Positions 157-44,673 of a stretch of DNA of 64,000 nt are shown here, one piece after another (position 1 is the first letter of the stretch; each line of letters starts with the position of its first letter). The stretch covers positions 49,032,281-49,096,280 of the forward strand of contig OY735202.1 of assembly GCA_963457665.1 (NCBI GenBank). Reading direction: 5' to 3'. This DNA comes from Thysanoteuthis rhombus. Lineage: Eukaryota > Mollusca > Cephalopoda > Oegopsida > Thysanoteuthidae. The notes beneath the pieces are model-generated. The model ran no database searches and was not told where the DNA came from. It was given only the letters and a program-made list of their open reading frames with translations. Both the position numbers and the translations under genes were made by a program.

Positions 157-198
<42 letters not shown>

Positions 199-453
199 GT
201 ATGCACGAGGATTTACGAATGCGTGCGTGCGTTCCTACGACTGTGCAAGCGTGTGTTTTTACGACAGAGCGAGTGTGTGCTTCGGTACGTGCATGTTACA
301 GATTATGTGGGTTTTTGTACAAGTTCTGTATGAACAGAATATATGCATGTGAGTATATGCTTACTATGTGATCGTGTGTTAGTATGAATGCGAACACACA
401 CAAACACGCACACATACATACATTGCATATACGTGCACGTCCTCTTATGTCAT
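1..453 (-). other. Predicted 3' UTR and downstream flank of the Sel1-repeat gene
   Basis: This lies downstream of the TAA. It holds a (TA)n run at 160-196 and GT/GC-rich simple sequence at 200-440. No AATAAA is seen on the minus strand; the variant ATTAAA occurs at 40-35 and is only a weak poly(A) candidate. The transcript may end outside the window. Confidence 0.4.
160..196. repeat. (TA)n microsatellite
   Basis: Perfect TA run near the predicted 3' end of the Sel1-repeat gene. Confidence 0.9.
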
Positions 454-553
454 TTAGGTGTCGCATCCACCACGAGAACACACGTGGTGAAGTGTGTCGT
501 GGGCCTCGGGCATCCCTTTCTGTGCTGCTTCAGCAATCAGCGAATGGGCCTCA
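454..553 (-). CDS. Sel1-repeat membrane protein, exon 5 with stop codon
   Basis: Codes residues 147-178: EAHSLIAEAAQKG closes the second Sel1-like repeat, MPEAHDTLHHVCSRGG is a half repeat, and the protein ends CDT followed by TAA at 456-454. The acceptor is TTTTAG after a pyrimidine-rich tract. Two cysteines (171 and 176) near the end could pair if this side is lumenal (inference). The 3' UTR must lie in 453-1 or beyond. Confidence 0.82.
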
Positions 554-1110
554 CTAAAACAAAACAAAACAGAAAAAAATAAGAGAATCATATCAATATT
601 GCAACAATTTGTCTACCATAGATGATAGACATACGTACAAAAATACACACGCACACATGTATACATACATATATAGCTGATAATATATTTTCAATTTGTA
701 AGAATACAAAAAGAAAGAAATAGAAAACAGATTGTATCAGTTGCAGGTGTTTAATCACAGAGCTCAATATTTAACACAGTAGATAGGGCTCTTAATCTAT
801 ATTTAAAAAAAGATTGGCAAAGATATATACGCATTGAATGTTAACATTTCGATCCTCGTAATTCTTATTATAACTTTAATCAACATGGAATAGAGTACTC
901 TGATGGATGAGGAATAAATACGATAAATAAATATATCGCTTAAATTCAACCTCACTGACCGTCTAGTTCCGTGGAGTAGAGAGAGGATACCAGCCTCTGG
1001 GTCTGAAGCTAAGGTTTCGATTCTTCCTCGTGGTACTGGATCGGATAATCGATAATAGCCACACTGAAGAGTTGTAATACCACGAAACAGCTGTCTTTGA
1101 ATGACACAAT

Positions 1111-1166
<56 letters not shown>

Positions 1167-2847
1167 GTGTGTGTGTATGTGTGAATGAATGACATGGCTT
1201 CGCGAACGAAAATTTTTGAAAGGCTTTGCAACAGCTGTGGGAACATAGACGGCGAGGCCTGTGTGCGAAAAAATCCCTCCGAGCAAAGTTTTGAGGCGAA
1301 GAGTGATTTGCCCAGGGTCGACCCCACAGGGTTCTGTAACCTATGGTTCACCTTAACGGTTCAAATAGAAGCAGTGCCCAAGGTCGTAGGTTTGACAGTT
1401 GGCAGATGCGAGCTAGCTTTGGGGTCTACCGCCCCTTCGTGGGTGTGTTCCGACGGAACAAGAACATTCTTAGGTTAGTAGATGCCTGAGTTATCTCTAG
1501 GGTGCTACCGTTCCTTAAGAAGTGAGGTCAGGACAGTACAGCTACTTGCCACTTTGAGCCCAGATCATTGTCACTCAAACAAAAGCAGATGTACGCTTAC
1601 TATGGGGTCTACTATCCTCAGAGTGGTGACCCGACAGCATATTAGCCAGAGCATATTAAGACCTAGGACTCAATAACAACCATAGAAGAAAATAACGTCT
1701 ACCTATCAAGTTTTAACTCAATATGCCCAGACTTCTTCACCCCGGACAATCCCAGGCCAGCCAATCCCCGTTTTTATTGTCTTTCCCATCTAACCAGAAA
1801 ATCTTTTAAAAATAAACAGACATCAAGTTCGTTTTTTTTTATAAATGAAGACAAGTAAGATTCACAACAAGTTCGTCATATTAAGAACCGGATCATGTTG
1901 ATTATAAATGAGAAATAATTTCAGAAAATAAAAGATTCCAACTTAGCTTCAAGAGATTGTAGGTTGGTCTGGGTTGACAAGAAACACAATCGAAAATAAC
2001 CAAACTCCAGAATAGAATTTTTAAGCAGAGAAACTATTTGTTGTGAGACTACTGACAGTTTGACTCAGAAAGATAAACATTCAAATGAATACTAAACCGG
2101 TACCGTATTGTAGATCCTGATGGTAACCTAAACAGAATTGACTGAGAAAAAGGTTTTTCTGTGTGTGTTTGGCGGGATTTGAAAGAGGGGTTGTTTATTA
2201 CAAACTGATAACCTAGACAGACAGTTACTGTGCAACACTACAATGAGCAATTACCTCGGTTGATTTGGAACGGAAAAGACCTTTTTTTTCTAGCAAGGAA
2301 GTCGATCGGTTATTTTGTTGCAAGACAACGCCCGTCTTCCTCTTGCTACTGTGACGCAAAGGGAAAATCTTCCACGTCTATTACCTCCAGACAAACACTT
2401 TTTTCGCTCTTTGAAACACTTTCACCGATTTCAAGATATTGAAACATTCTTTGAAGAGTCCATCAAATCAAAACCGGATTAATGTATACGACTTATAATA
2501 TATATTTCACCTACACACACAATATATATATATATATGTATATAGTCTATAGACACACTGAAGAGATGTATTACATCTACACAATAATATATATATATGT
2601 AGACTTTCCATTATCCCATCCAGGCAGAATTGAAACCTTCACATCAGACCCGCAGGCCGATATCCTACCTCTGGACTACGGAACTGGACAGTCAGCAGGG
2701 CTGAATTTAAGCGATATATTTATTTACGCAGAAATTCCTCATCCACCAGCGTGCTCTATTCCTATGGAAGAGCATTGCATAAGCTGACAGTGGATGAGTA
2801 ACCTCACTTAAAGAATGCTCAACCCTCAACCCTGAATAGAGGAGCAC

Positions 2848-2889
<42 letters not shown>

Positions 2890-5800: not shown

Positions 5801-8006
5801 GACTTTAAATCTTTACCTAAAACTTTTTGAAAAATCGACTTATATTACAGTATATACAATACGTAAGATATAGATTTGCGCAGTCTATAATTTTGAGAAG
5901 AGTCATTGACATACTAACTTTGACAATCTAATATCTTCTTTCCATCTTTTTTATTGACACAACGTTTTTGTTGATTTGCTTTACGAAAGAGACTCTATTT
6001 TCTTACGAATATTACATTTAGCACACTAAGAAGGCCATAGAATGAATCAGCCGAAACATTGTGTCAACAACAAAGATGGGGAGAAGAGACTAGATCGTCT
6101 GAACAAACGTTGGTATATATTTGCTCAATTATGGTAAATACTCGGTAAGTCTCTGCAAGATATTTTTTTTTTAAAGGCAAGAAGACGAAAGACAACGAAT
6201 GCCAATTGGACTCTCTTTCAAAAGATTGAAACTTAATTTTAAATGACCTTGTTTCTTCTCTTCAGCCGAGCCGATAAGATAAAGTGCTCCAGATTTCATG
6301 AAGGGCTTTTGTAATGATAAATTAATCGGTCGAAATACGCCAATCGCTTATCTTCTCAGCTGCAGATTTTCCAGTTGAAAGGTCAAGCCTAAAAGATAAT
6401 GGAAAGGCTGAGGAGAAGGAAGAGGAGGAGGAGGTCAAGGATCTGAAAGAAGAAGGCAAGATGGGTGGAAGGAAAGAAGGAATAGAAGAAGAAGAAGAAG
6501 AAGAAGAAGAAGAAGAAGAAGAAGAAGAAGAAGAAGAAGAAGAAGAAAAAGAAGAAGAAGAAAGAGGAAAGGGACGAAGATATGAAGAAGAAGAAAGAGG
6601 AAAGGGACGAAGATATGAAGAAGAAAAGAAAATAAAGGATGAGAACGTGAAAGAATAATTGTTGTTGCAGCAGGATGATATATAAAAGAAGAAACTAGGG
6701 TGTGCAGACAAAGAACGGATTTTAACCTGTATTACATTGATTTATTCTTTACTCCTTCTAGATCCTGACCCCCCAAGTACAGAAATGCAGAAAGACAGCT
6801 GATTTTAGCCCTCACGATTATAATCCGATGGCTATAAACGATAGAGGCTAACAAAAACAAGTACGTGGTCTGTTCGATGTCTGAAATAGTTACATATCAT
6901 ACCAGAGGTCGATGATAAAGCTCAGATGAAAGCCAGGATTTCAAATGCTGATTTTCTGTAGGTAAGCTCTACCTACTTGAAAGATAGCCGTAAGACAAGT
7001 CTTCTCATTCCTCCCATTTGTCCTTGGGCTGAAGTAAGCTAAGCCAAGAAAAGATCAAGAATTCAAGTCCCAGTTTAAATCGTCGATATCTACCAGAAAG
7101 AGGATTTTTCAACTTTATCATTGTCGATATTTGGTGTGCTAGTCACTTACGTTTTCTCTCCTCTAAATATAATAGGCATGTGAACACACTTTGAAAAATC
7201 TTCGAAACCCTATTTTTAGAATGTATCAGAAATTCGAAAAATTTCGTCCTGAATTTTTTTGTTTTGGTTATAAATAAATTAACCCAATTTTTTGTCTAAG
7301 AAAAGTAAATGGACGTATCTATAGACTGCTATGAATTGAATATTTACTTTAATTGGCAATAAGCCAATCGTAACGCCATTTTCGATGACTGTTAAATAGA
7401 AGTTTCAAGACATTGTAAACTCGACAGTAAAAAATCTATCAAACCAGAGTGATCATTGCAAACAATTTCATGATGTTGAAATGCATTATAAATTATTTTA
7501 CTATACAAATGCACAAAGAATAAGGAAGAAAAGGTTTGTCAATGGCCAAAAAAAGGAAGCAAGTGTAACTGTCAGAATAAAGTTACTATATGTCGAATTT
7601 TTTTCCCGTACAAACATCATCAAATACCATAGCTCTGAGTCAATAACATGAATAAGCCATCCGGATTCTAAAATCAAGAATTAAAGAATTGAATAAATTA
7701 CCCAGTCTTCAGTGGTGTTTTAATGCCTTTTAAATGTCCAATAGCCAAGTTGAAGCTTGCATGAGGGTGGCCCTGATCACTGGCTTTCCTAAAACAGAAT
7801 GTAACAATAAAAAGAGGAATATGAACAATGTTTTGTAGATTAAACTCATATTTGTTTCATTTCAATTATTAAACTGAGTAATGATTCCTAGACAGAAAAT
7901 ACAAGTAAACAAACCTTTTAGGATTACCTCAATCTTTGTTTTTCAAATATGTCGTTTTCAAGTCAATAAATGGCTTATATTTCACTATACATCTTACTTG
8001 AACATG

Positions 8007-8066
<60 letters not shown>

Positions 8067-9869: not shown

Positions 9870-9943
<74 letters not shown>

Positions 9944-12900: not shown

Positions 12901-15900
12901 GTTTTTGCAAATTCTACAAACAGAAAATTTGAGGGAAAAACCATCTTTGGTCATTGTCTTCAGCTGGAAAACAGACTTTTTCTCCTTATAGACGTTAATG
13001 GTATGAGTGTCCACTTTTCCAGGCAGTGGAGGGTTGATAACATAATGTACGTGGGAACATCACGTTTGCGTCACATAACATGATTTTGCTACACCATTGT
13101 CCATTATTGAAAATACAGTGATTTCGAAACCGGGGACCAACCTTCAACTTCCATTACCGAGAATGGCCTGATCCAGGGGTAGAGGAAAACGCAGCTCGTT
13201 TTCCCACCCTCCCACCAGCGGACGCCCATTGTTAATGGACTTCGTTTCCTAAGTATCTGATATCTCATCTTTCAGTAGTGTGATGCCCAGCCAATAACCT
13301 TTGCCAAAAATAATTACTTTTAGCTAGGCGGGCTGAATACACTCAAGTGGTTGTCACTGTTGCCTTTTACGGTAGTCCTTTTGGCGTCGTGTTGGTGATG
13401 TGTCGGAATTTAAGAGGCACTTGAAAGTCTGGAGATACTTTGGAGACTCTGGTCGAGGAGTCGCTTGGAGATATCTTCAACGTGCGGACGCGGCACATGC
13501 GTCTCGCTAATAGTCGTTTTCGGCTAAAATCTCATTCTAATCTATAGATATGTCACACTCACCTCAACAATAATGATCTGATTTCCAACTATTTCTATAG
13601 AGAACTAAATGCCTGATTCTGTTCATCTGTATGTGACTTACAAGTAGCTAGAGCGGTATATTGCTGCTAGAAGTATTGAATCAAGTTGTCCTTAAAAAAC
13701 AGTTTTGAAATTCTATCTATACTTTCCGCGGGTACTAACTGAAAACCTGAGCTTTCAGACAGTACCTCCCCCCTCTAAACTTTAATCCCGTATAACATCT
13801 ACCAAAACTGTAAGCAAGTGTAAGGCTTTAATATTTCTAAATGTACATAAAATTTGATTGGAATATCCCACTAGACCCCAAAACAGATAGATCTGAAAAC
13901 AAAACAAAATAAAATTTTTTTAAAAAGACAGAAAGGAAAGACCCCCCCCCCCTTTAGCTAGGGGTAGACCAGCCATAAAACTATTAGATTAAAAGACAGA
14001 ACATCTTCAAACATCCTGGTGATAAATTCTTGCTGCTTTTAGCTTGGGTGACCGATGAATTCTTCAACAATGTAAGGAGACCCCTCTTCAACACGTCATG
14101 GGCCAGCGTGACAGGGGTATGGCCCAACACTCCCCATGGCTCGCACAACGAAAATTATACTGGCCGTTCCAGCTGGGTCCTTGTTCCGAAAAGGCCCAGC
14201 CACATCATTCGGTTTGGGTGAGGGTGATGTGCTCCAAATGCGACCACCCAAACACTACACCAAAAGGCCCAGCTGCATCTCTTGCCTTGGGTGGGAGTGA
14301 TGCGTCCCAACATCGACCACCCAAACAAAACCCAAACAGAATCCTTAAACCCAAACAAAACCCTGAAACCCTCAACAAGAGAACAGGGTTATACATCAGC
14401 ACCGACAACATTAGGACACTCTCAACAGACTCTCACCTAACATATCTAGAAAACGAACTCAAAAACATCAAATGGGACATCATAGTTTTAAGCAAAATGA
14501 GAAGACCAGGAGAAGAACAAATAGTATTGAAATGCAAACATCTTCTCTACAGTTACGGAAGGTGAAACAAAGTGGAGTAGGCTTTCTCATCAATAAAGAC
14601 CTCAACGTCAACGTGGTAGACTTTAAAGCTATCTCAAACCGCATGGCTAGTGTCACCATACAACTCTCTAAGAAATACAAGCTAAATGTCATCTAAGTCT
14701 ACGCTCCCACTTTGGAATCAACCAGAGAAGAAATAAACAACTCCTATGATGACTTGAACTCCCTATTACAAGATACCAAAAGATACTTCACTGTCATCAT
14801 TGAAGTAGGACAAGGAAACGAACGCTGCGTCGGAGAATTCGGATACAAAAGACGGAACGAGTGAGGTGAAGATCTTGTAAATTTTGCAACTGCAAACTAC
14901 TTCATCAATACATTCTCCAAAAAGAAATCCAATAGAAAATGGACTTGGAAGAGTCCCAACCAAAAACGAAATAGACTACAATTTAATGGACAAAAGCTAT
15001 ACCATCAAAGACATACAGATTCTAAACCAAATAAATGTAGGAAGCGACCATAGAATGGTAAGATGTAAGATACAAATAAACACAAATAATGAACGCAGGA
15101 AAATGTTCCACGCCAGACCGCACCCTCTAAACGTACCAAATGAACTCACCCCAACCTTCAAGCTAGAATTGAAAAACAGATTTGATATCCTTACCGACGA
15201 AAACGACACCAACATCAACGAACTCCACAGCAAAATAACAACCTCTTTATTAGAACGTGCCAGTATGTTTAAACCAAGAAACACAGCAACCATATCTCTG
15301 ATGAAACCAAGAAACTTATTGAAAAGCGCAGAAACCTCAAACCACCAACAACCACAAGGGAAAAAATAGAAGAAACCGAACTGAAGAAAACAATAAAGAA
15401 GAAACTAAGAGAAGACAAAAGAAGGTACACGGCAGCCATCATCAAGTCCAATCTCGAAAAACATCGAGGATTTAAAGCAATAAACAAGCCTCTCATTACA
15501 GGACAGAAACAGATAATTTGTATTCCCGAAGCAAACGGAGACATAACAACAGACAGAGACAGAATTGTTGAACGCACCCAAGAATTTTACTGGGAATTCT
15601 ACTCTTCAAAACACGGACAATATAACAACGACCAGAATACACAAGTTGCCGACAATCAGTTCGAGGACGTCCACGAAGTTACACCATGGGAAGTAAAGCA
15701 AGCAATCAAACACTGCTATCATAATGCTTCTAAATAAAAAAGGAAACCCCAAAGACCTCAACAATTACAGACTTATAAGCCAACATAACTGCATGTACAA
15801 ACTTTTCACAAAAATCATCACCAACCGAATTACTAGAAGACAAGATGAAAACCACGAGGACAGGCTGGATTTAGAAGAAATTACTCGACCGTAGACCATC

Positions 15901-16880
15901 TTCAATCAATAAATAAGCTGAAAGAGAAGTTGGCAGAATACAAAATGCCATTCACTGTAGCATTTATAGATTTCAAGAAGGCATTCAACTCTGTAGAAAT
16001 TCCCATGGTCATGAAGGCCATCACTCTACAAGGTGTAAACCCTGTACACGTCTAAGTACTGCAACATATAAACAATCACAGCAACTCATCCATTAGGCTA
16101 CATAAAAGGAGTAAGGTAAGGTGATACCAGCTCACTCAAACTCTTTATAGCCTGCCTCAAGATGATCTTCCGAAACATGGACTGGGAAAACAGAGGAATC
16201 AAAATAGACGGCGAATATCTGAGCAGCCTTAGATTTGCAGACGACATCATCTTTTTCGCTGCGAACTTACACGACTTCCAATTAATGCTAGATGAATTAA
16301 ACGGAAAAAGCAAAAAAGTCGGCCTACACAAGAACTTCAGTAAAACGAAGATCATGTGCAACAATCATATTGAGAATAAGAACATAACTGTCAAGATAAA
16401 AGATGCAAAACTCGGCAAAGTAGACCACTACATCTACCAAGGACAACAAATCTCCATGAGATCCTCAAAAGAGGAGGAAATCAAGCGAAGTATCACTCAA
16501 CTTTCAAAAACCAGACGATCCCAATAATCCTAAAAAGAAGAGTATACAACCAATGCAGTCTCCTGATAGTCACTTATGGAGCTGATTACATGGAGGGATC
16601 ATTATACAGCACAGTATATCAGGAAGAAAACGGTAGTCCGAGACATCATAGAAACTATTTAAAAAAAACAACTCAAATGGCAATGGGCAGACAACCGATG
16701 GACATCACGACTCACAACATGGATCCCCAGAGATCACATGAAAAACCAGGGTCGACAGAATACAAGATGGAGAGATGAACTAGACGAATTCAGTAAATAC
16801 TGGCTCTGCGAAACCCATGATAGAGAATTGTGGCGAATCCTGGGGAAGGTCTATGTCCAACGACGGACGTTAAAAGAATA

Positions 16881-16924
<44 letters not shown>

Positions 16925-28900: not shown

Positions 28901-31900
28901 AACAGATCTGCCTTCTTTCACCAGAGCCATCTTGGATGCTTTTCTCGGCTGCATTTACGCTGGTGGAAATGGCTCTCCTTCTCTCCCTTGATTCTGAGTG
29001 TAATGTATGCTCTGCGAAGTGACAGACTTGCATAGCCTGATACCCAACCTTCATGGGCCCTCTGCTCGTAGGCCTTCTCCAACCATTCTTCCCATGGCAA
29101 AGTGAGCTCGAACATCATAACCTGCTTTGATGAGTCAGACCCTAATACTATGTCAGGCTGTAGTGTCGTCTTTGAGACATGAGGAGGAAACTGCAGCTAA
29201 TTTACAAGTCCTGCCTTCAAGTCCCAGTCCTGAGCGGTAAAGAGTAGCCAAATAACCTTCTGATTTTCTTTCCCTCTCTTTGACGAAGTTGATGACGTTC
29301 CTGCTTAGCTTTGTCCTCCAGCAGAGGGTACTGCCAAGAGTATCTGCAATTGTCTAAATAACCTGGTCAAGTCACCACTGATAGTGAGTATCAGCAACAG
29401 CTCTAGGGGAAAAGTCCAGGATATGTTCCAGTAGGCTAGTTTTATCACATAGGGAGTGGTTGGTTGTTCTGCAAAGCCCCAGCAAGCAAATTGGATGGAC
29501 TAGGAAGGACCTCATAAACAGTCCGGATGAGGAACTTGATGCATGGATCTATCTTTCAGATATTTCACCTCATCTCCTGTTCCCATTTGGTCCAGGTACC
29601 TCGCTGTCTCATTGCTACTGCTCTTCAACTACGTCTCCTTCTCCACAGCCACACTGATTTTGTCCTGGATCAGCTGTTGCTATTTCCTCCCCGTTGCTTT
29701 GTCAAAATGGAGACTTTAACCCTTCCAAGACCAGTTCTTCCTTGCATGACTGTCCCCTCCAGTACTTCATGGTGTAGTTGTGCGCCAAGTGCTTTCACTA
29801 AGGCTTCTGCTCTCCACTTCCTTTTGGCTCTTACAACCACTTCCACTCCAGCAACCTTTGGATCTGGAGATCCTTGGTACTGCAGCACTTCACTAGCTCA
29901 TGTAACCTAGAACTCCTCCTCAACAGATCATTTGTAGCTGTTCTCATACCGAGCAATGTTTCTGATCACTAAAATTATCTGAATTCGAATAAACCTTATT
30001 TTTGTACAGAATTTTAAATTCATAAAAATTTTTTACAGTCATCAATACTGAGTGCTGATTTCATTTATCTATTAGATATTTATTTAATAATGATGTTTAA
30101 ATTGATAAGCAATCAAAAGTGATAAACAAATAAGATTGATTACTTACTTGAACCATTCCATTGCCTTTTCCGGATGAGCACTGACACCAATGCCTGTCAG
30201 ACACAAAGAAAGATAGTTATCCTTTCCAAAAAGAAATAATTCAATAGGGTGTGCACATGTCTGCGCATACACACGAACATACACAAACACTTCTGATATA
30301 AATGCAAATATTAATGGATATAAAAATTAATGGTTCATGATGTTGTACAGTATGTTTCAGAAGCTGAATACACAGGAGAGAAATCTGAACTGGAAACACT
30401 TAGCTCTAAGAAAATCCTATTATCCATTACATTTCTTTCCCTCTATTAATCTTTTTAAAATTTCATTTTAGAGAATAATAGAATGTAGAACTGTTATGAG
30501 AGACTCAATAAGAAAGATATGATGACAAAAATAGACTTTTCATAAATTGTGTTGCCTGTAAAGGAGGAGGGGAATGGTAGCAACGACCGATGAAGAGCCT
30601 TAGGAAGGGAACGATGTTTAATATTTCCGTATTCCTTCCTTACTCTGATCAAGAACGATTATGAGAACGATCTTATACCAAGTTATCTCCCTTGCATTTG
30701 CCAGCTGTATCTACTCTGTTAAAAGAATATTTGCACCAGTGTTGCTATTCTTCCGACAATAAAAACACCCATATTATCTAAAAAAAGAAAAAAAATCTAA
30801 CCTAAATTGTGGAATAACTACCAACTGCATAATTCAAGGTGCATAATGCGATAAAAATTGAACTTATCATTCAATTGATACTTACATTGCAATATACAAA
30901 GTACCACTTCTATTCTGTGGTCTGTTTTTGAATGTTGTTTATGTCACAGAAATGAGTTACTACTAACACTGAGAGTAAGAACAGGAATCCTCTCCCCGTT
31001 GTTATAAATTTATTTCTTTCATGAATTCTCTTCCCTTCATATGATTTTATGTATTTTTATTTTTTCTGCTAACAAATTAAAAGCTTACAAGCTAAAAGTC
31101 TTTGAAAAAACTTTATATTTCCAAATTCCAATATTATCTGTTACATACTTTTCAGGTTTCTTCTGTGCATTACATGAAATAGTTGCTATCAGGCGTGCGC
31201 ATTCTGTTTAACTCTGTATTCTAATATGAAAAATATTTTTTGTTTGGCATTTAAAGAAAAAAACAAACATTAGATTTCTATTTATGTCTGGTGTACATAG
31301 AATCATTACTTTGAATAGATTTACATTAAATAGTTGGTGGATAAAAAGTATGACACCTTGGCAATCAGGGGTTAATGGGTTAAATACATACATTGATCCC
31401 TAAACAAACAAAAAGCCCTCATTTTAAGGAACTCCAGCTAAACAAACACTAGCTTTAACACAACTATTAACCAAGTATAAAGATATACTTTAAATTTTTG
31501 AGGTAGATATGCCCAGACATAGACAAAACCCCAGATTTTATGGAATTATAGAAATAAAAAACTCCAAACTCTACGTGACACTGAAAAAGCTCAGATCTGG
31601 GTGGAAAACAAAGCAGTGGCAATAAAAAATTCTTTATCATTAATTCCAACAAGTTTTTTCACAGTCATCCTAACTTTCAATTACTTCTCATCGCAACTTT
31701 TACTCAAACCTTAAGTCTACAACAACAATTAAACAGTGCAATTGGAAATTAGAGAGCAAATCCACAGTGAGAATTGAACTTACACCTTCTTGCCAGAAAG
31801 GGTCCAGTATATGCTTGGCTGCTTTAAACAATTCAGCCACAGGGACTTTATAACTAAATGGAAGCTGATTTTACACCTTCAACAGAACTCATTACATCAA

Positions 31901-34900
31901 ATATTTGATACTTGTTGATGCTTACAATTGTAATTTTTCATCCAAGAATGAATTTTTTTAAAATCTAAAATGTTGTTGTATTAAAAAACTACTAGGTCTT
32001 AATTGTAAACATTGACAGGGTGGAATATCAGCTACAAAGAGTTGGGTTTCAGGTGTAAAATCAGCTTCTATTCTCATGACTAAATGGTTAAGAGTAGCCA
32101 GGCATAAGCTGAACCCCCTCTGGCTAGAGGGTGTGAGATTGATTCTCACCATGGGCTTGCTCTTTATTATCTGTGTGCACTGTTTAATCATCGCTGTCGA
32201 ATTACAGTCTACTTCAAATATGCAATAAAAAGCAACTAAAAGTTAGACCATCCCCTCTTACTATGTCTACGAGTATAAATAAATGCTTTTGCCAGTTTTG
32301 TCTAGGGTTGTTGAAAATCTTCACTCCAACTGTCGAATATTATAAGTTTGCATGAAATAATTTCATCAAAGAATAAATATGATCAGACTAAATTCTATTT
32401 ATTACATGACTGGCATTTCCCACTTGACAACATCTAAAATAGGGAAAAAAAAAATCTAGAAACATCAAGATTTCGGGAGAATTTAGATATCATCAATAAA
32501 TAAGGCCCAAAAGAGCTTTTTTTTTCAAAAAATCAACAAAGTTTTTCTAACATTTTATCCATTGTGCAATCAATTAATTATATTATATCATTCACAAGCT
32601 CAAGAAAAATTTCTAAAGCTATTAAGATGGGTTCCAAATGAACTTACAGAAATGAAAATCAGTCTGCATTTAAATATTTGTCTTTCTCCTCTTGCGCAGC
32701 ACAAAAAAGTTATTTTTTGACAAGATAGTCACATGTGATGAAAATGGATTTGTTACAAGAATCTATAACAAACAAAATCATAGCTAGATCCAGAATAGCC
32801 TTCAACATCTAAAACTATGGATAAAAGTTCTTGGATTGCTTTAACATCCTCCCACCTAGAGAGGAAATCTACACATCTCCCCACTATGTTTTGCCAATTA
32901 AGTATCCTCCCCATCAAAGGGGAGAGAAATATTTTATTGACAAAACTTTTTTTTTAAAAAGAAGATATTGTTCATGCATTGTTTACATAAATTTGTAAAT
33001 TGGGTTCTATTCAATTTTTCATCAGACTTGTAACATTTGGCTTTGTATTTGAAAAGTCCATTTTGAGTAACAAACAATTAGCTGACAATTGGCCATCCAC
33101 AAGCAGGGGAAGAATAGGTTATGGCTAGGAATATGTTACCAGCAATGGGTTCTCTTCATTCAGTTCTGACAATTGGATATCCTCCCCTTTAAACCAGTCT
33201 CAGGGATGAGGATGTTGAAGTGATCAGAGTTCCTCTTTGTTATTTGGAGAAAATCCTTTATTCAAATTAATGGAACCTCAACAAACCATTGCAGCACAAT
33301 GCAAAGACCTTTTACTGAGCGAGTCAATCATCAACTTCTATCCTGAACATTATAAATGCAATACAACAAATGATCCTTTTGCTGGGATGGGCAGTTTTCC
33401 CCATATGCCGCAATGGGGTTTCAACTATTTCGAGATATTGTATTCCAAAGACATTAATGATGCTACGATTTTATATGAATGGAAGAATTCGTCTAAAACA
33501 TGCTGAAACTTTTGCATCAACCCATTAAATGGAAAAAAAAATCATTAAAGAATCTTTGTATCTAAGGGACGCAATTTCGATTGTAGAATTTTTTCAAGAG
33601 TTACGTCCCTTTATAAGAACATCATCCATCGCCATGACTGCATCAAAATGTGTAGTTTTAGGTTTTCAAAAATTCAAAATTCTCTAAAACTAATTTAAGT
33701 TTGCAAGTTTAGTATATCATAAGAGGTAAATATCTCATTCTTGCTATGTTAAGCAGAAAATCTTTTAAAAAAACCAAGAATTCATTGTAATTCAATGGTA
33801 AACACATATGTCACATCTAAACAACTTTCAATTCTCTACATTTGTTTTGAGGTATAAGTAATGCTGTGAATATGAAGCTTCCATACAAGTTTGCATTTAT
33901 TTAGTGTCAATGAGACAATTTAGTACTATGAAAAGCAGATGAATCAGGGCTCTTGGAATGAGCTTTGAAATCTTATTCAGATTTTACGGAAAAAGATGAT
34001 TTTGCTCATCTTTTGAGGTACATATTCTTGTTAAGTAAAACCTAAAGATTACCTACTATGATATCATCTGTAGAAATTGTGAAACCTACCATGAAGATAT
34101 CTTTGTCCAACTTGGTGCTGTGCTTCTGAATATCCTAGATGAGCATAGGCATGGATAGCATGGAAATGGACATTCTCAAAATATAAGTAAGAGTAGATAG
34201 CAAACAAGATAGTACCAATAACAACCAAAGCCTGCAACCAAAATAAGAAAGAAAGTCAAGATCAAATAAATGAAAAAAAAACAAATAAGTCTGGTTAGTC
34301 ACATGATAGAAACCATCAAGGTCTTTAGGCAGCATGCTGTGTTGGAGGTGATCTACTTGAACATTGGGAAAAAGGGGTGATCAATGAATAAGTTACTTCT
34401 CTCACCTTTTGTTGGGCATTGATCACTATGAAAAGTCTGAAATTTCAAAAAAAAAAACAAAAACAAGCATGCGTGCGTGCTGCTGGACACAAACTAAGGG
34501 ACCAATTTAGATGAAACTTACATTGCAAATTGAACCTGCCGCTGAAAAACCTACTTAGGGGAGGAATTTGAAAAAAAAAAAAAAAAGTTGTTTTTTCTAG
34601 CCATAATAAGGAGTAAGTGTTTAAATTTTCAGCTCTCTAGCTCCATTGGTGTGGCCTGTACACATGATGCATACATAGCCAGCCAGCCAGACCAACTTGA
34701 AAACTGAAGAAACCTATGTTGATAGTTCTGGCTGACGGTTTCTTATTAAATTTCTTATTGAGTTAATAAAGTTTAATAAATTAATCATATCTATATTCAG
34801 GGCCTTACAAAATAGACAGACTGGAACATCTGGACATGTCTCAGTATTTTTGCTTGAAAGAGACAGAACCTTTATTCAAAAAATAAATAATCAGTTAATT

Positions 34901-40142: not shown

Positions 40143-40214
<72 letters not shown>

Positions 40215-40721
40215 CATACATATATATATAAATATATTAAAGCAGCAATTTTTCCTCTATGCAAGTTTCATTGAACAGTATATTTTTTCGGAATTTTTTG
40301 TTGGCTTGATTTTCTTGAAAGTCTTTTATAGTTTTTGCATACTATTCTTTATAGCTGGTTTGGAGGAGAGTATGAACTTTCCCAAATTAATTTTGTATGT
40401 ATCTATATTAAGTTTCCAAGTACTTCACTAGTCTTTTTCAAGGTTAGTTTTCAAATTGCAGAGGTGTTTTGTCCCAATTTTCAATAGTATTTAACCTTTA
40501 GTGCAAGCTATGTCACTTCGGTTTGTAGTAAGTGGTAATCAGCTCTGTTATTTCAAAACTAACCTTGAAAAAGACCAGTGATGGTTGAAAGTACTCAGAA
40601 AATTAATAAAGATAGATACAACATGAATTTTGGAAAATTTACACACACTCCTTCGAACAGGCTATAAAGAACAGCACAAGAAAGCTTGAGAAACTTACAA
40701 AAAACTAAACCCACCAAAAAT

Positions 40722-40759
<38 letters not shown>

Positions 40760-43700
40760 CACTTATGCAAACCTCACGACTAATTTGTTCCACACATCCT
40801 TGTGATAATCAAGTGTCATCAAAATACATACAAGATCTTATATATACCCTATTTTGTACTTGTTTATTCTCACATAATACTATAATTAGAATATATACAT
40901 ATACATACATGCTGACTGGCTGGCTATATATGTATGTATTACATGACCAGGCCACACCAATGGAGCTAGAGGGCTGAAAGTTTCAACATTTACTCCTTGT
41001 TATGTCTAGAAAAAACAACATTTTCTGTTTCTTGAAAAATTTTCCCTCAAAATAGGTTTTTAGTAAGAGATTCAATTTGCAATTGTAGTTTATGCAAAAT
41101 TAATCCCTTAGTTTGTGTCCAGCAGCATTCACACTTGTTTTTTGTTTTCAATTCTCATTTTTTAAATGATCACTGCCCAACAAAAGGCAACAAGAGTAAC
41201 TCATTCATTGATCACTCCTTCTTCTAATTTCTCAACTGATCATCCCCAACACAGCATGCTGCCAAACGAGGTTGGTCACATGCCTGTTTCTATTTAGTGA
41301 CTACCCAGACTTATTCTGGGGATATTTGCAAAGTCAACAAAACTGTAAATTTCTGTTAATTAAAAAAGCCTTTGCACAAACAAAGGATAATTATATCCTC
41401 CTCATTGTCTGTCAATTGATTCTGTCAAATGATTTGATTGATTAGATAAAGTATTAGAGATGTGGAATGAGATGAGAAAGTTATCAATTATCTGATTGAC
41501 TGATATCAGGAGCTGCACCACTTGATGACAGGTCGGCAATTAGGGAGTTGATTAAAAGCTATTTTAGAGGCTTTTAGAATTGCAATGATTAAGTGTCAAG
41601 GCAGTGAAACACTCGAATCAATAAGTTATTTTTTTTAGCGTTTTGAAATCTATATCATAAAAGCATGAAAGATGTGACCTGCAACTGACTAATCACTGAA
41701 AAGAAGGGAACTCCAGGTGACAGATCTATAAGATAGTTTCTAGATGTATCTGCACATCTCAATAAGATATATTTTGATTGGTCGGTCAGTTCCATTCACG
41801 TTAATCAACAGAGAGAGGAAGCAAGGAAGACGCATGATGTCACAGAAGTCTATATTGATAATTTTTTTTTTACCATTTTCTGTGATGTTATAACTTTGGT
41901 ATTTTAAAAAAGCTGAAAATGGCCCAAAACTGCCAAGAATGGCCATTTATGATTTTCATTTAAAATGATATTTGCGGAATATTCCCATACCCCAAATCTT
42001 CACAAGTATGAGGATCAATTGACACAAACAAAAACTATTTGCTCTTCTTCCTGCTACAACAATGGATAGTGGACACATCTTTGAACTTATGGTTCTTGTT
42101 CTTCTCTATGAATTTATAGGATTGCTAATTATAGGTATTAGAGTTGTGGGAAGTAATAATAGGAGTTATGAAATTAGACATATCATGTGACAAAGTTGCC
42201 ACCAAATGTATGACATCACAGAGAAGAGTTTAGGAAAAAGACAGATGTCAATAGTCAGCCATGACAGTTCTAGAGATAAACATCTGATAACCATGTTATC
42301 TTTGTAAGAAGCACATGTGGCAATTTTGAATGTATAGACACAAATAACAATGTTCAATCAAAGAATTCATAATTGGAATAAAAACAGATGCAGATGTTTT
42401 TAGACAAACAATGAAACGTACGTTTATTAGACAAATAAGACATTTTTAAACACTATGTACATTTCAGCAGAAAAAGAAAACAAATGAACATTCATGTACA
42501 ATCATTTTTGTCAAGGCTGGATTGGTAAGTAATTAAAGGAGATATGATTTAAGATAGAACAGATTTGAAGTGAATACAGCAAGATCTATTGAATCATCAT
42601 AGAGAAGTTGAATATACTATATAAAGTTCGGGTGATTGCACAAATTATGTGACTGTTGTGTAGCAACATTTTGTTGGTTAATCCATTTGGACAAGGTAAT
42701 GGAGATGAATGAAGTCACATCCAGCAAGGCTGAGTTTAATACAATCGCCCAGGCTGTAGTGTTAGACATTCCTTAAGGATTTCAGGCATAAAAGAGAAAG
42801 ATCCCAACATCAATGCCAAGGTTTGTGACAGTGATTGGTCATGATAAAAAAAAGTGAAGAAAGCAATATACTTATTTGTGTTTATTTTTTGTATTTAATT
42901 TTTATTAGAAATAAACGAATTACTCCAAAAGTTTTGAGATTAAAAATCTCATCCATGTTTTTTTTGTATCTCAGATCCATTCTACTGTCATGAATAGTGG
43001 TGTCATTATTTTTGCTAAATATGAGAAACATTGAATTTATAAGAGTCAAAATCTACGTTATAATTGATCTTTCTGTTTAGACAAAAATTGAGGCTAATTT
43101 ATTTCAAGAAAAACTTTGGAAAATCGATAATGAAACGTTTCTAAAAATTTTGTTCATGCCTACATAATAGTCTCTATATTTCCTGATTTTTTCTGCATGA
43201 TTCATTACAAAATAATAATTTCATAAAGATAAAGTCTGAATTCCACGTGAGCAACTCGGTAGAATATGAGAACAAAAAGAAAAATTTGATGTAAAAATAA
43301 CTGAAAAGAAAAAACGAGTTTAAAGCAAAGGAACATCGTCAAACAAAGTGTAATGGAGAGGGAAAATGAAGGGTTGATGAAGTGAGACAAAATCATTTTT
43401 TTCTTTCTGGCTTCACAATTTTCTTAGATATTATTCATTATTTATTTTCAAGCGGTTTCTTAAGTCATAAAGGCAGTCCATCTCCAGGTTGGGGCTAGCA
43501 ATTCAACTTCCGAAAACGTACCTGCATCTGAAATTGCACTGTGCTCCAAGCCCACAAGGAGACCCAAGACAAACATAAAAGCGAAATCTAACGCAAAAAT
43601 GTTTTGAATTTAACACAGAAAAGATAACAATCACCTATCCATGATTATAATAAGTGGCTCCCTCTGTCACGTATGAATTAATTCACGATGAAAATAATTT

Positions 43701-44343
43701 GGTTCAAATGATCAAAACAAATGAATGAAGTAAACAAGTCAAGAAACTCTTCACTTTTTCCCCAAGAAATAAGTATTTTTAAATAATCATCGTATAAAAA
43801 TTTAGTCACAAGAGCAAACATTTTCGCTTTACTATTTTTTATAAAACGTTCCCGATGTTTTGTAGTAATTATCTTAAATATATAAGTCAAGAGACTAAAC
43901 TAAAAAAATAAAAAAGCTATTTATTATTATTATTGTTGTTGTTATTGTTATTATTATTACTATCATAATAGCTGTTTTGTTTAAATAATTCTCTTTAATC
44001 ATGACAACCATCGAAACAAAGAAAAAAGGAAGATAAATCTTGAAACTTGAAATATGACAAAAACATTTTTTTTAAAACGAACAGATCAATAAATAATACA
44101 AGTAATTGTTTATATGTCGCCATTGGCAACGTTGACACGATATAGATCAGTAAATTAATTGAATATGCATTTTTTAAATACCTCAATTGCCTTGATGTGG
44201 AGAGGATCTGGCTTTTTTCGACGTGCAAGATAAACCCTGGCATATTCAGGAATATTTTCACTCCAATGTTTTTTGTTTTCTGATACGTTCCTCTTTCTAA
44301 CTGTCTCTTCAGTAGCACCCAACAGAGGTTGCCTGTCCTCCAT
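454..44343 (-). CDS. Small membrane-anchored Sel1-repeat protein, 5 exons (gene span, start codon to stop codon)
   Basis: Five exons join in phase on the minus strand: 44343-44182, 34231-34090, 30193-30148, 7788-7702 and 553-454 (537 nt, 178 residues plus TAA). All four introns begin GT and end AG. The predicted protein has a basic N-terminal tail (1-54) with DRQPLL at 3-8, which matches the [DE]xxxL[LI] endolysosomal sorting pattern. A hydrophobic helix follows at about 55-73 (ALVVIGTILFAIYSYLYF), then Sel1-like repeats at about 88-123 (GYSEAQHQVGQRYLHGIGV, then EKAMEWFKKASDQGH) and 124-159, and a half repeat at 160-175. Sel1 repeats are alpha-solenoid scaffolds; in SEL1L they lie in the ER lumen. 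Basic residues before the helix suggest a cytosolic N-terminus and lumenal repeats (inference). Residues 55-178 read as one continuous solenoid across four exons, which is the main evidence that the gene is real. I do not recognise a named orthologue. An upstream in-frame ATG at 44370 would add nine residues. Confidence 0.85.
885..1112 (-). repeat. TA-associated dispersed repeat (family A), copy 1
   Basis: About 230 bp, alignable by eye to 2600-2785 (opposite orientation) and 8066-8290 (same orientation). Shared blocks include gaatttaagcgatatattta and the 'cagcctctggg..tgaag' core. It abuts a (TA)n array at 1113-1165. One frame stays open in each copy (residues like NLSDIFIY) but without an ATG-defined gene. 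Probably a non-autonomous mobile element. Confidence 0.7.
1113..1165. repeat. (TA)n microsatellite beside family A copy 1
   Basis: TA run ending in a short GT stretch, directly bordering family A. Confidence 0.9.
1185..1680. other. GC-richer unassigned block
   Basis: About 500 bp distinctly richer in G and C than its surroundings, starting right after the (TA)n(GT)n tract. Short open frames exist on both strands but show no domain I recognise. It may be part of an unidentified mobile element. Confidence 0.3.
2600..2785 (+). repeat. TA-associated dispersed repeat (family A), copy 2, inverted relative to copy 1
   Basis: Reverse-complement relative of 885-1112 and 8066-8290. It carries the same gaatttaagcgatatattta block and the same open frame (RIETFTSDPQ, NLSDIFIY). 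A (TA)n(GT)n array follows at 2852-2909. Confidence 0.7.
2852..2909. repeat. (TA)n(GT)n microsatellite
   Basis: TA run to 2878 followed by GT-rich sequence, about 65 bases after family A copy 2. Confidence 0.9.
3420..3785 (-). mobile_element. RTE-like LINE, reverse-transcriptase fragment
   Basis: Minus-strand translation shows the RT fingers/palm approach: KASGQD, EEIAEVYHKGLAQLF, then QGIMILLLKKGDD, RRITSLSNTYK and LDEIQLREQADF. These correspond to the usual PGPDG...IIxLLxKKGD..NYRPISLLS...EQAGFR order. Both ends of the element are missing. A non-functional fragment. Confidence 0.8.
3877..3965 (+). repeat. tRNA-like SINE fragment
   Basis: A box A-like TTAGCTCACTTG and a perfect box B-like GGTTCGATTCC lie about 60 bases apart, with no convincing cloverleaf or anticodon arm. 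I read it as a tRNA-derived SINE head or tRNA pseudogene, not a functional tRNA. Confidence 0.5.
5073..5350. repeat. Diverged tandem duplication, period about 205 bp
   Basis: The segment at 5073-5138 (gatatgttagcc ... gttacacactaagttagcc) recurs at 5278-5350 (gatatgataaattagcc ... gttacacagtaatttagcc). Two units only. Confidence 0.55.
6487..6560. repeat. (GAA)n microsatellite
   Basis: Near-perfect GAA repeat followed by two copies of a roughly 33 bp purine-rich unit (6560-6626). It creates a long poly-Glu frame on one strand and a poly-Ser frame on the other; neither is a gene. Confidence 0.9.
7702..7788 (-). CDS. Sel1-repeat membrane protein, exon 4
   Basis: Codes residues 117-146: KKASDQGHPHASFNLAIGHL, then KGIKTPLKTG. 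This completes helix B of the first Sel1 repeat and starts the second (HPHASFNLAIGHLKG). Acceptor is TTTTAG and donor is GTAATT. It is separated from exon 3 by a 22.4 kb intron, yet the repeat register runs on without a gap, so I join them with good confidence. Confidence 0.82.
8008..8064. repeat. (TA)n microsatellite beside family A copy 3
   Basis: Perfect run of about 28 TA units. Confidence 0.9.
8066..8290 (-). repeat. TA-associated dispersed repeat (family A), copy 3
   Basis: Same family and orientation as copy 1. It begins directly after the (TA)n array at 8008-8064. It is more diverged (NLSDIFTY in the shared frame). Confidence 0.65.
8417..8510 (+). repeat. tRNA-like SINE candidate with A-rich tail
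   Basis: Contains gccggtggcctaacggtgaa (box A-like) and, 35 bases on, a box B-like gagtttaaactccgg. An A-rich tail ends near 8505. The order resembles a short tRNA-derived SINE. Confidence 0.4.
8995..9240 (+). mobile_element. RTE-like LINE, 3' end
   Basis: Plus-strand translation gives GRVARVAHNCW, SQLTTLIPRD, then RQKMRWRDELDKF and KYWLSNALDKKVW. This is the C-terminus seen in the other copies at 16680-16860 and 24420-24710 (WAGHVARMADNQW). It ends in a degenerate ATGATG tail. Confidence 0.75.
9325..10258 (+). mobile_element. Non-LTR retrotransposon C-terminal region, interrupted by (TAA)n
   Basis: Broken plus-strand frames give YTFDVINWNLEEMQRIDRTT, KGETERFYPSRSKASLRTKS, the zinc-knuckle-like CHFCTHDE, DMAVTADYSVKAKENKRLGK and ALLRLVRMLRKMLEI. 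These follow, in order, the C-terminal part of a common animal LINE polyprotein (VINW...RKLLT; CxxC; LIDMAVPxDxxV; ALLGTARILRKVL). It is a different LINE from the RTE-like copies. A (TAA)n(TAG)n array at 9871-9942 sits inside the former coding region. It carries several stops and frameshifts and is dead. Confidence 0.7.
9871..9942. repeat. (AAT)n(AGT)n compound microsatellite
   Basis: Perfect trinucleotide runs embedded in the decayed LINE C-terminal region. Confidence 0.9.
11188..11448. repeat. Polypyrimidine (TTTC)n-like tract
   Basis: About 260 bases almost purely T and C on the plus strand. Overlapping open frames of F, L and S in several registers are by-products of composition. Confidence 0.9.
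12180..12270 (-). repeat. tRNA-like SINE candidate
   Basis: Plus strand reads gagattcgaactcgcatcc, the complement of a GGxTTCGAAxC box B. A box A-like sequence is less clear. Treated as SINE debris. Confidence 0.4.
12386..12720 (+). repeat. Dispersed repeat family B, copy 1
   Basis: Shares gtctggttagtcactcaata, the gatcaatgatcaag block, the 'aagctaagggatcaatttag' block and the terminal 'gttgatagtttt..ttgacag' with copies at 34290-34745, 40905-41315 and others. A full copy runs about 350-450 bp. No coding frame; probably a non-autonomous element. Confidence 0.7.
14186..16925 (+). mobile_element. RTE-like LINE, nearly full length but decayed
   Basis: A 5' part has two tandem monomers of about 74 bp (14186 and 14260). 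Then come AP-endonuclease remains (YISTDNIRTLS, SGVGFLINKDLNVNVVDFKA, VGSDHRMVRCKI), a basic linker (15330-15480) and RT blocks (NYRLISQHNCMYKLF, AFIDFKKAFNSVE, RFADDIIFFAANLHDFQLML, GLHKNFSKTKIM). A 3' region (near 16690) and a (ATG)n tail at 16882-16923 complete it. The RT catalytic FADD motif is readable. At about 15715 the frame jumps from AIKHC straight to MLLNKKGN, so the usual PGPDG segment is deleted. Numerous stops and frameshifts. Family assignment to the RTE/BovB-like group rests on motif style. Confidence 0.8.
16882..16923. repeat. (ATG)n tail of the LINE
   Basis: Perfect ATG trinucleotide run forming the 3' tail of the RTE-like LINE; similar tails end the copies near 9235 and 18620. 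Confidence 0.9.
16991..17225. repeat. Short minisatellite, unit about 50-63 bp
   Basis: Units start at 16991, 17040, 17095 and 17158 with the shared head acgggtagg (last unit ataagtagg) followed by 'ttaaac', 'cattcact' and 'attacatat' blocks. It lies just beyond the LINE tail. Confidence 0.65.
17925..18173. other. GC-rich insert inside the LINE fragment
   Basis: Roughly 250 bp clearly richer in G and C than anything nearby. It splits the LINE 3' coding region. Open frames exist on both strands (for example LRLHIAKHIGNLW on plus) but match nothing I recognise. Confidence 0.5.
18389..18551 (-). repeat. Dispersed repeat family B, copy 2, inserted in the LINE
   Basis: Reverse complement of 12386-12546 with only around ten differences over about 160 bases by eye. 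It lies between 'catgatagagag' and 'ttggagaaggtc', which are close together in the intact LINE at 16818-16850. Confidence 0.75.
19525..19990. repeat. Unassigned dispersed-repeat candidate
   Basis: Contains 'ggatacccggtgttgcccga' and, further on, repeated 'tgaccttcaatgacc'-type words. I recall similar wording from animal interspersed repeats, but no second copy in this window confirms it. Confidence 0.3.
20521..21090. repeat. Tandem array, unit about 245 bp, 2.3 units, related to family B
   Basis: Units begin near 20521 (ctgaggtcctattagtaatc), 20779 (ctgaggccctattaataaca) and about 21020. Each carries 'gccagacataaactaagaga'-like and 'accaattcagcataaa'-like blocks shared with the middle of family B, and a poly-C or poly-G run. 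Confidence 0.6.
21570..22265 (-). mobile_element. RTE-like LINE, RT palm to 3' end fragment
   Basis: Minus-strand frames give ADDIILSAENLHDPRIMLDE, then ESNKVGLPMNSKK, and downstream the RLKWQW/HVVKM and TTWIPKDH-like C-terminal blocks (21580-21740). The ADD catalytic motif is visible. It carries frameshifts and stops. Confidence 0.75.
23389..23860. repeat. Diverged tandem repeat, period about 160 bp
   Basis: The block 'ttcgttattcaccctagaca' at 23389 recurs as 'tcgttcattatttaccccag' at 23548. Each is followed by a 'tcaagtgtg' block and an 'aagatggctgccaaat'-like word that also appears near 23650 and 23812. Confidence 0.5.
24355..24835 (-). mobile_element. RTE-like LINE, 3' end
   Basis: Minus-strand frame reads NLTWRDHKTAQYTPEKTGIR, then IIASIKKLKWQWAGHVARMA and SRLTTWIPRDHL. 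This is the least decayed C-terminus of this LINE here. The 3' UTR ends in the conserved 'cttccccaggattc ... aacgtccgttg' words and a short CATCAT tail. Confidence 0.8.
25141..25190. repeat. Perfect 18-bp stem hairpin
   Basis: gaacaagagattgcaact (25141-25158) and its exact complement (25173-25190) surround a 14-base loop. Related words recur at 25205-25240. Confidence 0.85.
28262..28365 (-). repeat. tRNA-like SINE
   Basis: On the minus strand: ATTGGTGTAATCGGTAACG (box A-like), then GACTTGAGTTCAAACTC (box B-like), spaced as in a tRNA. The neighbouring 'aagggagataact' word also occurs in inverted form near 30680. Confidence 0.5.
28890..29920 (-). mobile_element. LINE C-terminal fragment with restriction-like endonuclease remains
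   Basis: Minus-strand frames read PDPKVAGVEVVVRAKRKWRA, QLHHEVLEGTVMQGRTGLGR, and later TTLQPDIVLGSDSSKQ running on into FELTLPWEEWLEKA. The PD...ELT spacing and the following LPWE...YEQRAHEG resemble the C-terminal endonuclease of REL-endo type LINEs (R2/NeSL-like) rather than the AP-endonuclease type. Several stops and frameshifts; both ends missing. Confidence 0.6.
30148..30193 (-). CDS. Sel1-repeat membrane protein, exon 3 (46-nt micro-exon)
   Basis: This 46-base exon supplies IGVSAHPEKAMEWF, exactly the GxGVxxDxxKAxxWF half of a Sel1 repeat needed after exon 2. The acceptor is CTGACAG and the donor is the strong GTAAGT. Phase is 1 in and 2 out, matching both neighbours. Its size explains why it is missing from any list of long open frames. 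Confidence 0.85.
31731..31932 (-). repeat. tRNA-like SINE, left arm of an inverted pair
   Basis: Aligns by eye with the reverse complement of 31998-32185 over most of its length (shared aaacagtgca, gagagcaa/aagagcaa, tgagaattgaacttaca/tgagaatcaatctcaca, gaagctgattttacacc, ttacaatt). The 'gagaattgaactt' block is a box B complement. Confidence 0.75.
31998..32185 (+). repeat. tRNA-like SINE, right arm of an inverted pair
   Basis: Contains gactaaatggttaagagtag (box A-like) and gtgagattgattctcacc (box B-like). It pairs with 31731-31932 across a loop of about 65 bases. Confidence 0.75.
34090..34231 (-). CDS. Sel1-repeat membrane protein, exon 2 (membrane helix)
   Basis: Codes residues 55-101 plus the first base of codon 102. 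It opens with the hydrophobic run ALVVIGTILFAIYSYLYF, the only membrane segment. It then enters the first Sel1-like repeat with the typical pattern LGxxEAQxxxGxxYLxG. Acceptor is TTGCAG and donor is GTAGGT. The family-typical A, G and Y positions of the Sel1 helix A are present. Confidence 0.85.
34290..34745 (+). repeat. Dispersed repeat family B, copy 3 (longest copy)
   Basis: Runs from gtctggttagtcac through 'gatcaatgaataagttac', 'acacaaactaagggaccaat' and 'agctccattggtgtgg' to 'gttgatagttctggctgacg'. Ends are defined by agreement with copies 1 and 5. Confidence 0.7.
34920..35240 (+). repeat. Left arm of a large inverted repeat
   Basis: Shares with the reverse complement of 36720-37030: gcaaaaaaattacac/attacat, gaaacaaacatt, 'tcaaatttc', 'gcatcaacaatat', 'cagcttgaac', 'tgcctgcaacaatgtt' and 'cagtgt'. 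Similarity looks moderate to high with small gaps. Confidence 0.7.
36720..37030 (-). repeat. Right arm of a large inverted repeat
   Basis: Partner of 34920-35240. The same frame is open in both arms (VACNNVLCSVLF here, VACNNVPPSVLF in the left arm). Confidence 0.7.
37305..37440 (-). repeat. Dispersed repeat family B, copy 4 (partial)
   Basis: The end of the family only, inverted: caacataggtttcttc ... ggctggctat ... accaatggagctagagggct. Confidence 0.65.
39437..39830 (+). pseudogene. Q/H-rich coding-like stretch with internal tandem repeat
   Basis: The plus frame reads MPQHVGLNPASTQQWWLHHQ, then LLQMQLQAEPPEQHILVQHQ, stop, QEEHVHPTINKYLYKELQTE, AQTAPPELYIADHHHHHHQH and ends at VHHIASN. The unit LQxQxQAEPPEQHILV / LQTEAQTAPPELYIAD is repeated. 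The composition resembles an activation-domain tail of a transcription factor. The opposite strand is also open (LEVQLEVAFEEG). It could be a relic of a processed copy; I cannot identify a parent. Confidence 0.3.
40146..40235. repeat. (TA)n array with interruptions
   Basis: AT dinucleotide run with TAAA and TACA interruptions. Another (TA)n lies at 40725-40757. Confidence 0.9.
40905..41315 (-). repeat. Dispersed repeat family B, copy 5
   Basis: Inverted, nearly full-length copy: ggctggctatatatg ... caatggagctagagggctga ... ttagtttgtgtccagcagca ... ttgatcactcctt ... tttagtgactacccagac. Confidence 0.7.
41760..42140 (+). repeat. Dispersed 350-380 bp repeat (family C), copy 1
   Basis: Aligns with 48055-48400: aatcaacagagagaggaagc / gatcaacagaaagaggaatg, then 'tttaaaaaagctgaaaatgg' / 'tttaaaaaagacctgcaatt', 'tttgctcttcttcctgc' / 'tttgctcttcctcctcc', 'tatggttcttgttctt' / 'tatggttcttgttttg'. 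Confidence 0.65.
44182..44343 (-). CDS. Sel1-repeat membrane protein, exon 1
   Basis: Codes residues 1-54, ending in phase 0. It begins MEDRQPLLG, continues through the basic stretch RKR and ends LARRKKPDPLHIKAIE before a weak GTATTT donor. I chose the ATG at 44343 because the DRQPLL motif then sits at the extreme N-terminus. The alternative ATG at 44370 is in frame (adds MGVTWQQVN) and cannot be excluded. The exon carries no membrane segment; the positive residues at 41-44 sit just before the helix coded by exon 2. Confidence 0.8.
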
Positions 44344-44673
44344 GTTTACCTGTTGCCAAGTGACTCCCAATCAGGATTTTCTCATTTTATACATTAGAGT
44401 TATCTCCCCTTCAGGAAGAAAATAACCGGAAGTCGTCAACAACGTTTATAAAATGGCGGAACTTTGAATAGATAAGAAGAGAATTCAATTCAACTTTTTT
44501 TTGAACTCAAGTTTCACTTCTTTTTTTTTTTTTTCTTGCTTTCAAGTTTATCTTGCGCGCAACTCCGCTCTATTCACTCAAAGAGTAAAGGGCAGTCATA
44601 AATTCTATCGTTGAATCTATTTATTGTGATCTTTTATGTCTGAGAACTTAAGGAATAAAAAGCGAAGTCCATT
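44344..44673. promoter_or_regulatory. Bidirectional promoter region between the Sel1-repeat gene and TAF8
   Basis: The two start codons lie 330 bp apart in divergent orientation. Inside are ACCGGAAGT (44425-44433), a consensus ETS/GABP site, and AAAATGGCGG (44450-44459), a consensus YY1 site. No TATA box stands at a convincing position for either gene. ETS plus YY1 without TATA is typical of housekeeping promoters that fire both ways. A homopolymer T run at 44521-44534 lies nearer TAF8. Confidence 0.65.

Follow-up and report, generated by a model that had tools for sequence, protein, structure and literature searches.

Whether five short open stretches scattered along the minus strand of a contig of the cephalopod Thysanoteuthis rhombus belong to one gene, and what the product of such a gene might do in the cell, was the question raised by this locus. 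The window, i.e., the whole stretch of 64,000 nt that was analyzed (C5:49032281-49096280), lies within an 80-Mb contig. After extraction and splicing in silico, the five joined exons comprised 537 nt, corresponding to 178 codons and a stop codon. Exon 1 (44182..44343, minus strand as for all five; 162 nt) contains the ATG, encodes a predicted cytosolic tail (residues 1-54) and ends in phase 0; it is the least secure exon. Exon 2 (34090..34231, 142 nt) encodes a predicted membrane helix (about residues 55-72), the helix that follows and the first half of Sel1 repeat 1, and ends in phase 1. The loop and helix B of repeat 1 are encoded by exon 3 (30148..30193, 46 nt; phase 1 to 2), and the end of repeat 1 together with the first helix of repeat 2 by exon 4 (7702..7788, 87 nt; phase 2 to 2). 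Exon 5 (454..553, 100 nt) adds helix B of repeat 2, a last helix with the motif CSRGGC and the stop codon TAA. All four introns, which span 3.9-22.4 kb, showed GT-AG borders, the exon phases were compatible (0, 1, 2, 2), and the gene covers 44,000 bases. The GC content of the exons was 0.37-0.57, as compared to 0.28-0.34 for their flanks. Beyond the stop codon, a probable 3' UTR (1..453, minus strand) contains a (TA)n run and, 414 nt past the stop, an ATTAAA poly(A)-like signal. Thus, the exon positions, splice borders, phase fit and length of 178 residues given in the original prediction were all confirmed by extraction; its description of the gene as hidden in tiny exons was an overstatement, since 46-162 nt is an ordinary exon size.

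The spliced protein was compared with the Pfam Sel1 model (PF08238), a check proposed along with the original prediction. Residues 89-124 matched all 36 of the 36 model positions with 43.9 bits (E 2.9e-11), well above the curated cut-off of 30.7 bits, and PF08238 was the sole Pfam family found in the protein. The matching residues are encoded by exons 2, 3 and 4, and two junctions lie inside the match, which therefore tests these junctions. Joined pairs scored 24.6 bits (exons 2 and 3) and 27.1 bits (exons 3 and 4), and no Pfam Sel1 match was obtained for exon 2 alone, exon 4 alone or exons 4 and 5. A phmmer search of solved structures returned 45 sequences at E <= 10, with the top chains named Sel1 repeat protein or similar, and included an E. 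coli Sel1 chain that aligned without gaps over 93 residues (74-166); the junction of exons 4 and 5 (residue 145/146) lies inside this ungapped alignment. As one repeat exceeds the curated cut-off, the protein can be assigned to the Sel1-like superfamily. The second repeat was weak (3.0 bits with a home-made Sel1 profile derived from the other Sel1 genes of the same genome). Of the two and a half repeats described earlier, one thus scored over the Pfam cut-off and another was weak. NCBIfam yielded four families, none of which came near its cut-off. The idea of a small Sel1 protein with a single helix was borne out by the open frame, the Pfam match and one hydrophobic peak. Because of the Sel1 evidence, exons 2-5 are firm, and their part of the gene model is almost certainly correct; exon 1 is less firm and is likely correct.

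Since introns of 3.9-22.4 kb allow many alternative joins, the five exons might be a chance assembly of unrelated open frames, or might belong to different transcripts. Random three-exon chains were drawn from both strands of the window (100-180, 30-70 and 60-120 nt; open; GT-AG borders) and scored with the home-made profile. None of 200,000 reached the score of exons 2-3-4, the best attaining 11.1 bits as compared to 28.9 bits. Together with the Sel1 match, which spans the whole model over two junctions, this makes a chance assembly extremely improbable. Codon usage was scored with a table of 822 codons, 444 of them from a haemocyanin unit, 294 from five exons belonging to other Sel1 genes and 84 from two TAF8 exons. 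In frame, the joined coding sequence scored +0.186 bits per codon, as compared to -0.112 and -0.138 for the two alternative frames. The fractions of 5,000 random open stretches that scored as high were 0.094, 0.036, 0.026, 0.017 and 0.0002 for exons 1-5, respectively; these figures are rough because the training set is small and its 294 Sel1 codons favor exons 2-5. When the 2,892 open frames of the window that are 15 aa or longer were scanned in six frames with a profile from the genome's other Sel1 exons, exon 4 ranked first (E 0.067), followed by a frame with E 1.4; the frame of exon 3 came out at E 4.1, and exons 2 and 5 were absent from the list. The scan is therefore weak for single exons, and it may have missed further Sel1 exons in the introns.

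The copy number was addressed by searching the protein against the 2.73-Gb assembly (514 contigs). Four of the five own exons were recovered at E < 1e-10, and exon 3, which is short, reached E 0.06. Outside the gene itself, the highest-ranking place was an exon on contig C34 (E 0.024; 32-35% identity over 74 residues). At this search sensitivity, the Sel1 gene has no second copy. PF08238 gave 13 matches in the genome at E <= 10, one of them above the cut-off; the Sel1 gene was missing from this list, presumably owing to the division of its repeat among three exons, and the matches found on C26 and C37 resemble noise. A bacterial origin or contamination was considered and rejected, as the gene contains introns and has TAF8 as its neighbor within a contig of 80 Mb. 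In the same context, a non-exhaustive scan of the genome_contigs collection with six peptide patterns yielded 27 stretches, five of which encode relatives with 28-36% identity; four of these match from residue 72 or later and one from residue 55. The Sel1 gene is a real, small, single-copy nuclear gene, an ordinary one with nothing strange about it.

The window contains few other features. At gathering scores, Rfam gave nothing in the window, nor did ARAGORN run with the bacterial code. In intron 3, the region 14059-16778 (plus strand) holds the probable remains of a LINE-type element: the open frame 16120-16527 resembles a reverse transcriptase (RVT_1, E 1.1e-6), just under the curated cut-off, and three neighboring frames showed no RVT_1-like match.

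Elsewhere in the genome, the haemocyanin genes, one unit of which had served for the codon table, formed large arrays. PF14830, a haemocyanin domain of molluscs, had 52 matches, which marks the genome as molluscan. Nine functional units, between 2,174 and 2,188 bp in length, are arranged head to tail at C25:56607034-56626656, together with an incomplete tenth. Each contains an open frame of 464 aa; compared with the first unit, the remaining eight show 99.27-99.82% identity over their full length, and a 324-nt stretch of the domain is identical in all nine. This array resembles the gastropod mega-hemocyanin, as far as the accessible text of PMC2881123 describes it, and looks very recent or homogenised; it is also possible that it is an assembly artefact. 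Five further haemocyanin-domain clusters of seven to eight units each are located at C32:26.21-26.27 Mb and 48.04-48.17 Mb.

The relation of the Sel1 gene to known Sel1 proteins was analyzed next to the other Sel1 genes of the same genome. The protein shares with the Sel1-like repeat proteins (PF08238) one full repeat above the cut-off and a weak second one; it differs in having only about two to two and a half repeats, with a single signal-anchor-like helix in front of them. To our knowledge, most animal Sel1 members have more repeats. SEL1L, a long type I protein, is similar in combining a membrane anchor with Sel1 repeats, which are predicted to be lumenal in the window protein. Two exons on C46 matched SEL1L with E 7.3e-61, whereas the window protein matched SEL1L with E 2.7e-20, behind five chains named Sel1/TPR repeat proteins or E. 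coli c5321. The C46 gene is thus SEL1L-like and separate, and the window gene is not the SEL1L orthologue. By eye, one intron of the SEL1L-like gene (phase 1, just before GLGV) lies about one codon from the junction of exons 2 and 3, and the other introns differ.

LRP2BP, which has Sel1 repeats and lacks a membrane anchor, was matched by residues 61-127 with E 2.6e-9, behind 13 other chains. The one C17 exon that was searched had LRP2BP as its best PDB match (E 7.6e-15) and points to a separate LRP2BP-like gene; judged by these similarities, the window gene does not appear to be the LRP2BP orthologue. The DELE1 chain was matched with E 4.9e-6, but the window protein lacks a presequence-like N-terminus and the C34 gene fits DELE1 better. 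One C34 exon matched DELE1 (62/81 residues, E 7.6e-13) above SEL1L and below five other Sel1-type chains; for a second, DELE1 (3e-11) was outscored by SEL1L (4e-16) and LRP2BP (2e-11). As this second exon is nearer to SEL1L and LRP2BP, the C34 gene is only possibly DELE1-like. The window gene thus differs from both the SEL1L-like and the LRP2BP-like gene found in this genome. The text available of the open-licence literature on Sel1 repeats (mollusc, invertebrate, transmembrane) contained, among the matches listed, nothing recognisable as the window protein; the scallop Sel1 protein named in the accessible part of PMC6460854 is 'Sel1 repeat-containing protein 1'. The Sel1 gene may well already be annotated somewhere as an uncharacterized protein.

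Upstream, the neighbor of the Sel1 gene is TAF8, located head to head on the opposite strand. Its first coding exon (44677..44815, plus strand; end set by eye) encodes the first half of the histone fold (Bromo_TP, E 1.4e-6), with an alternative in-frame ATG at 44674. The second half is encoded by an exon at 45810..45902 (plus strand; Bromo_TP, E 1.1e-7; ends set by eye), and the two exons joined matched Bromo_TP with E 3.6e-17. Part of TAF8_C (PF10406, E 1e-5) is encoded at 50313..50426 (plus strand; ends set by eye). An open frame at 53392..53868 (plus strand), with a weak match of 22 residues to TAF8 in PDB (E 0.11), is the probable C-terminal exon. The divergent ATGs of TAF8 (44677) and the Sel1 gene (44343) are about 330 bp apart. 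The gap between them (44344..44676) is a probable shared divergent promoter, with ACCGGAAGT at 44425-44433 and AAAATGGCGG at 44450-44459, presumably an ETS-type and a YY1-type site, respectively. Sites of both types are common in divergent promoters. Each motif occurs as an exact, sole copy in the window; the numbers expected per window were 0.21 for ACCGGAAGT and 0.11 for AAAATGGCGG, and at least one copy was present in 18 and 11 of 100 shuffles, respectively, counts that are post hoc since the motifs were sought after the sequence had been read. The GC content of the gap was little raised (0.34-0.41 in 200-bp windows). The Sel1 gene and TAF8 probably share one promoter, and the divergent arrangement suggests broad expression of the Sel1 gene.

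This arrangement also bears on the start of the protein. The junction of exons 1 and 2 is the weakest, with a weak donor (GAG/gtattt); exon 1 joined to the start of exon 2 gave no Pfam match, its codon score was ordinary, and 162 ATG-led frames open over at least 54 codons (nested ones included) occur in the window. Exons 2-5 might thus be real and exon 1 wrong, in which case translation would start elsewhere and yield a different N-terminus without the two sorting motifs described below. Set against this are the phase fit and the initiation context, with A at -3, G at +4 and an in-frame stop codon 30 nt upstream. In addition, the head-to-head position of the TAF8 start at this short distance, with the two promoter-like motifs in between, supports exon 1 as the true start. 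A wrong exon 1 is therefore considered quite unlikely.

The topology was predicted from hydropathy and charge. The protein has one hydrophobic peak, the best 19-residue mean being 2.04 from residue 48. The hydrophobic run ALVVIGTILFAIYSYLYF is encoded by exon 2, and therefore the predicted helix is independent of exon 1. Six K/R residues are present in residues 29-53 and none in residues 73-97; with this basic flank in front of the helix, the N-terminus is predicted to be cytosolic (type II). Beyond the helix, there are two cysteines (Cys 171 and Cys 176) and no N-glycosylation sequon. The single sequon, N19, is on the predicted cytosolic side. The product is most likely a membrane-anchored small protein with a helical binding domain. 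It would be a type II membrane protein in which a cytosolic tail of 54 residues precedes a single signal-anchor helix; the lumenal domain would comprise about six short helices and may be closed by a disulphide between C171 and C176.

An endolysosomal or ER adaptor had been suggested in the original prediction, which pointed to the tail motif DRQPLL. This motif is indeed present (residues 3-8) and fits the pattern [DE]xxxL[LI], so that, provided exon 1 is correct and the topology is as predicted, the tail is of the kind found in the class of dileucine-sorted endolysosomal type II proteins. Dileucine motifs of this class are bound by AP-2, according to the portion of PMC2882754 that was available, and a TMEM163 dileucine motif binds AP-3, according to the excerpt of PMC13195334. 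A competing motif was overlooked in that prediction: VRKR at residues 15-18 fits the arginine-type ER-retrieval pattern [hydrophobic/R]RxR. Among 20,000 shuffled tails, the dileucine pattern occurred in 7.2%, the arginine pattern in 21.9% and both in 1.5%. The endolysosomal reading thus amounts to one six-letter pattern that 7.2% of shuffles also contain, and 15% of the type I protein set in the accessible text of PMC2882754 carry a dileucine pattern. Both this commonness and the location of the two motifs in exon 1, the least supported exon, speak against endolysosomal sorting. An endolysosomal adaptor is possible, with a single short motif from the least secure exon in its favor and a competing ER motif close by.

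Alternatively, VRKR may hold the protein in the ER or early Golgi, where it would serve on the lumenal side as a small adaptor, e.g., in folding or degradation. In the available part of PMC2799409, a type II protein is directed to the ER of plants by N-terminal arginine signals together with a lumenal signal. Among animal Sel1 proteins, SEL1L is the best known; it acts in the ER, and the genome contains a SEL1L-like gene; this gene is separate, which argues that the Sel1 gene does not encode the ERAD scaffold itself. The arginine pattern is frequent in the shuffled tails, whereas a dileucine at the extreme N-terminus is rarer, since only 1.3% of them had one within the first 15 residues. Residence in the ER or early Golgi is accordingly somewhat unlikely, and an endolysosomal location was judged to be slightly more likely.

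A third location was considered because DELE1 and COA7, the latter presumably the 'Sel1 repeat-containing protein 1', are mitochondrial. The helix would then be a mitochondrial membrane anchor with the Sel1 domain in mitochondria, and the C34 exon, which is possibly DELE1-like and ranked highest in the genome outside the gene itself, would fit this. That exon, however, itself fits the SEL1L and LRP2BP chains slightly better than DELE1. Moreover, the N-terminus MEDRQPLL is acidic and unlike a presequence, and the similarity is generic for Sel1, as the best bacterial segment attains 39.6% identity over 91 residues. A mitochondrial anchor is thus improbable.

The preferred reading remains a type II protein that holds a Sel1 clamp in the lumen, is sorted by its tail to the endolysosome or to the ER/early Golgi and is encoded by a single-copy gene beside TAF8. 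It is proposed tentatively, with a probability of about 0.4. In the lumen, a single partner, either a protein or a peptide, would be clamped by the short Sel1 domain, and the tail would determine the site within the secretory pathway, either through binding of the acidic dileucine to adaptor complexes, leading to the endolysosome, or through binding of the arginine motif to COPI, leading to the ER and early Golgi. A more far-reaching version is unlikely: that the gene represents an undescribed, short type II Sel1 family, linked to the TAF8 promoter and not known among vertebrate Sel1 proteins, whose lumenal Sel1 clamp is carried to endolysosomes by the dileucine of its own tail and acts as a small adaptor outside ERAD.

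At the level of annotation, the analysis yielded a plausible uncharacterised gene with candidate sorting signals and a likely promoter shared with the gene of a general transcription factor. If its product were endolysosomal, it would represent a new compartment and a very small size for the Sel1 adaptors known in animals.
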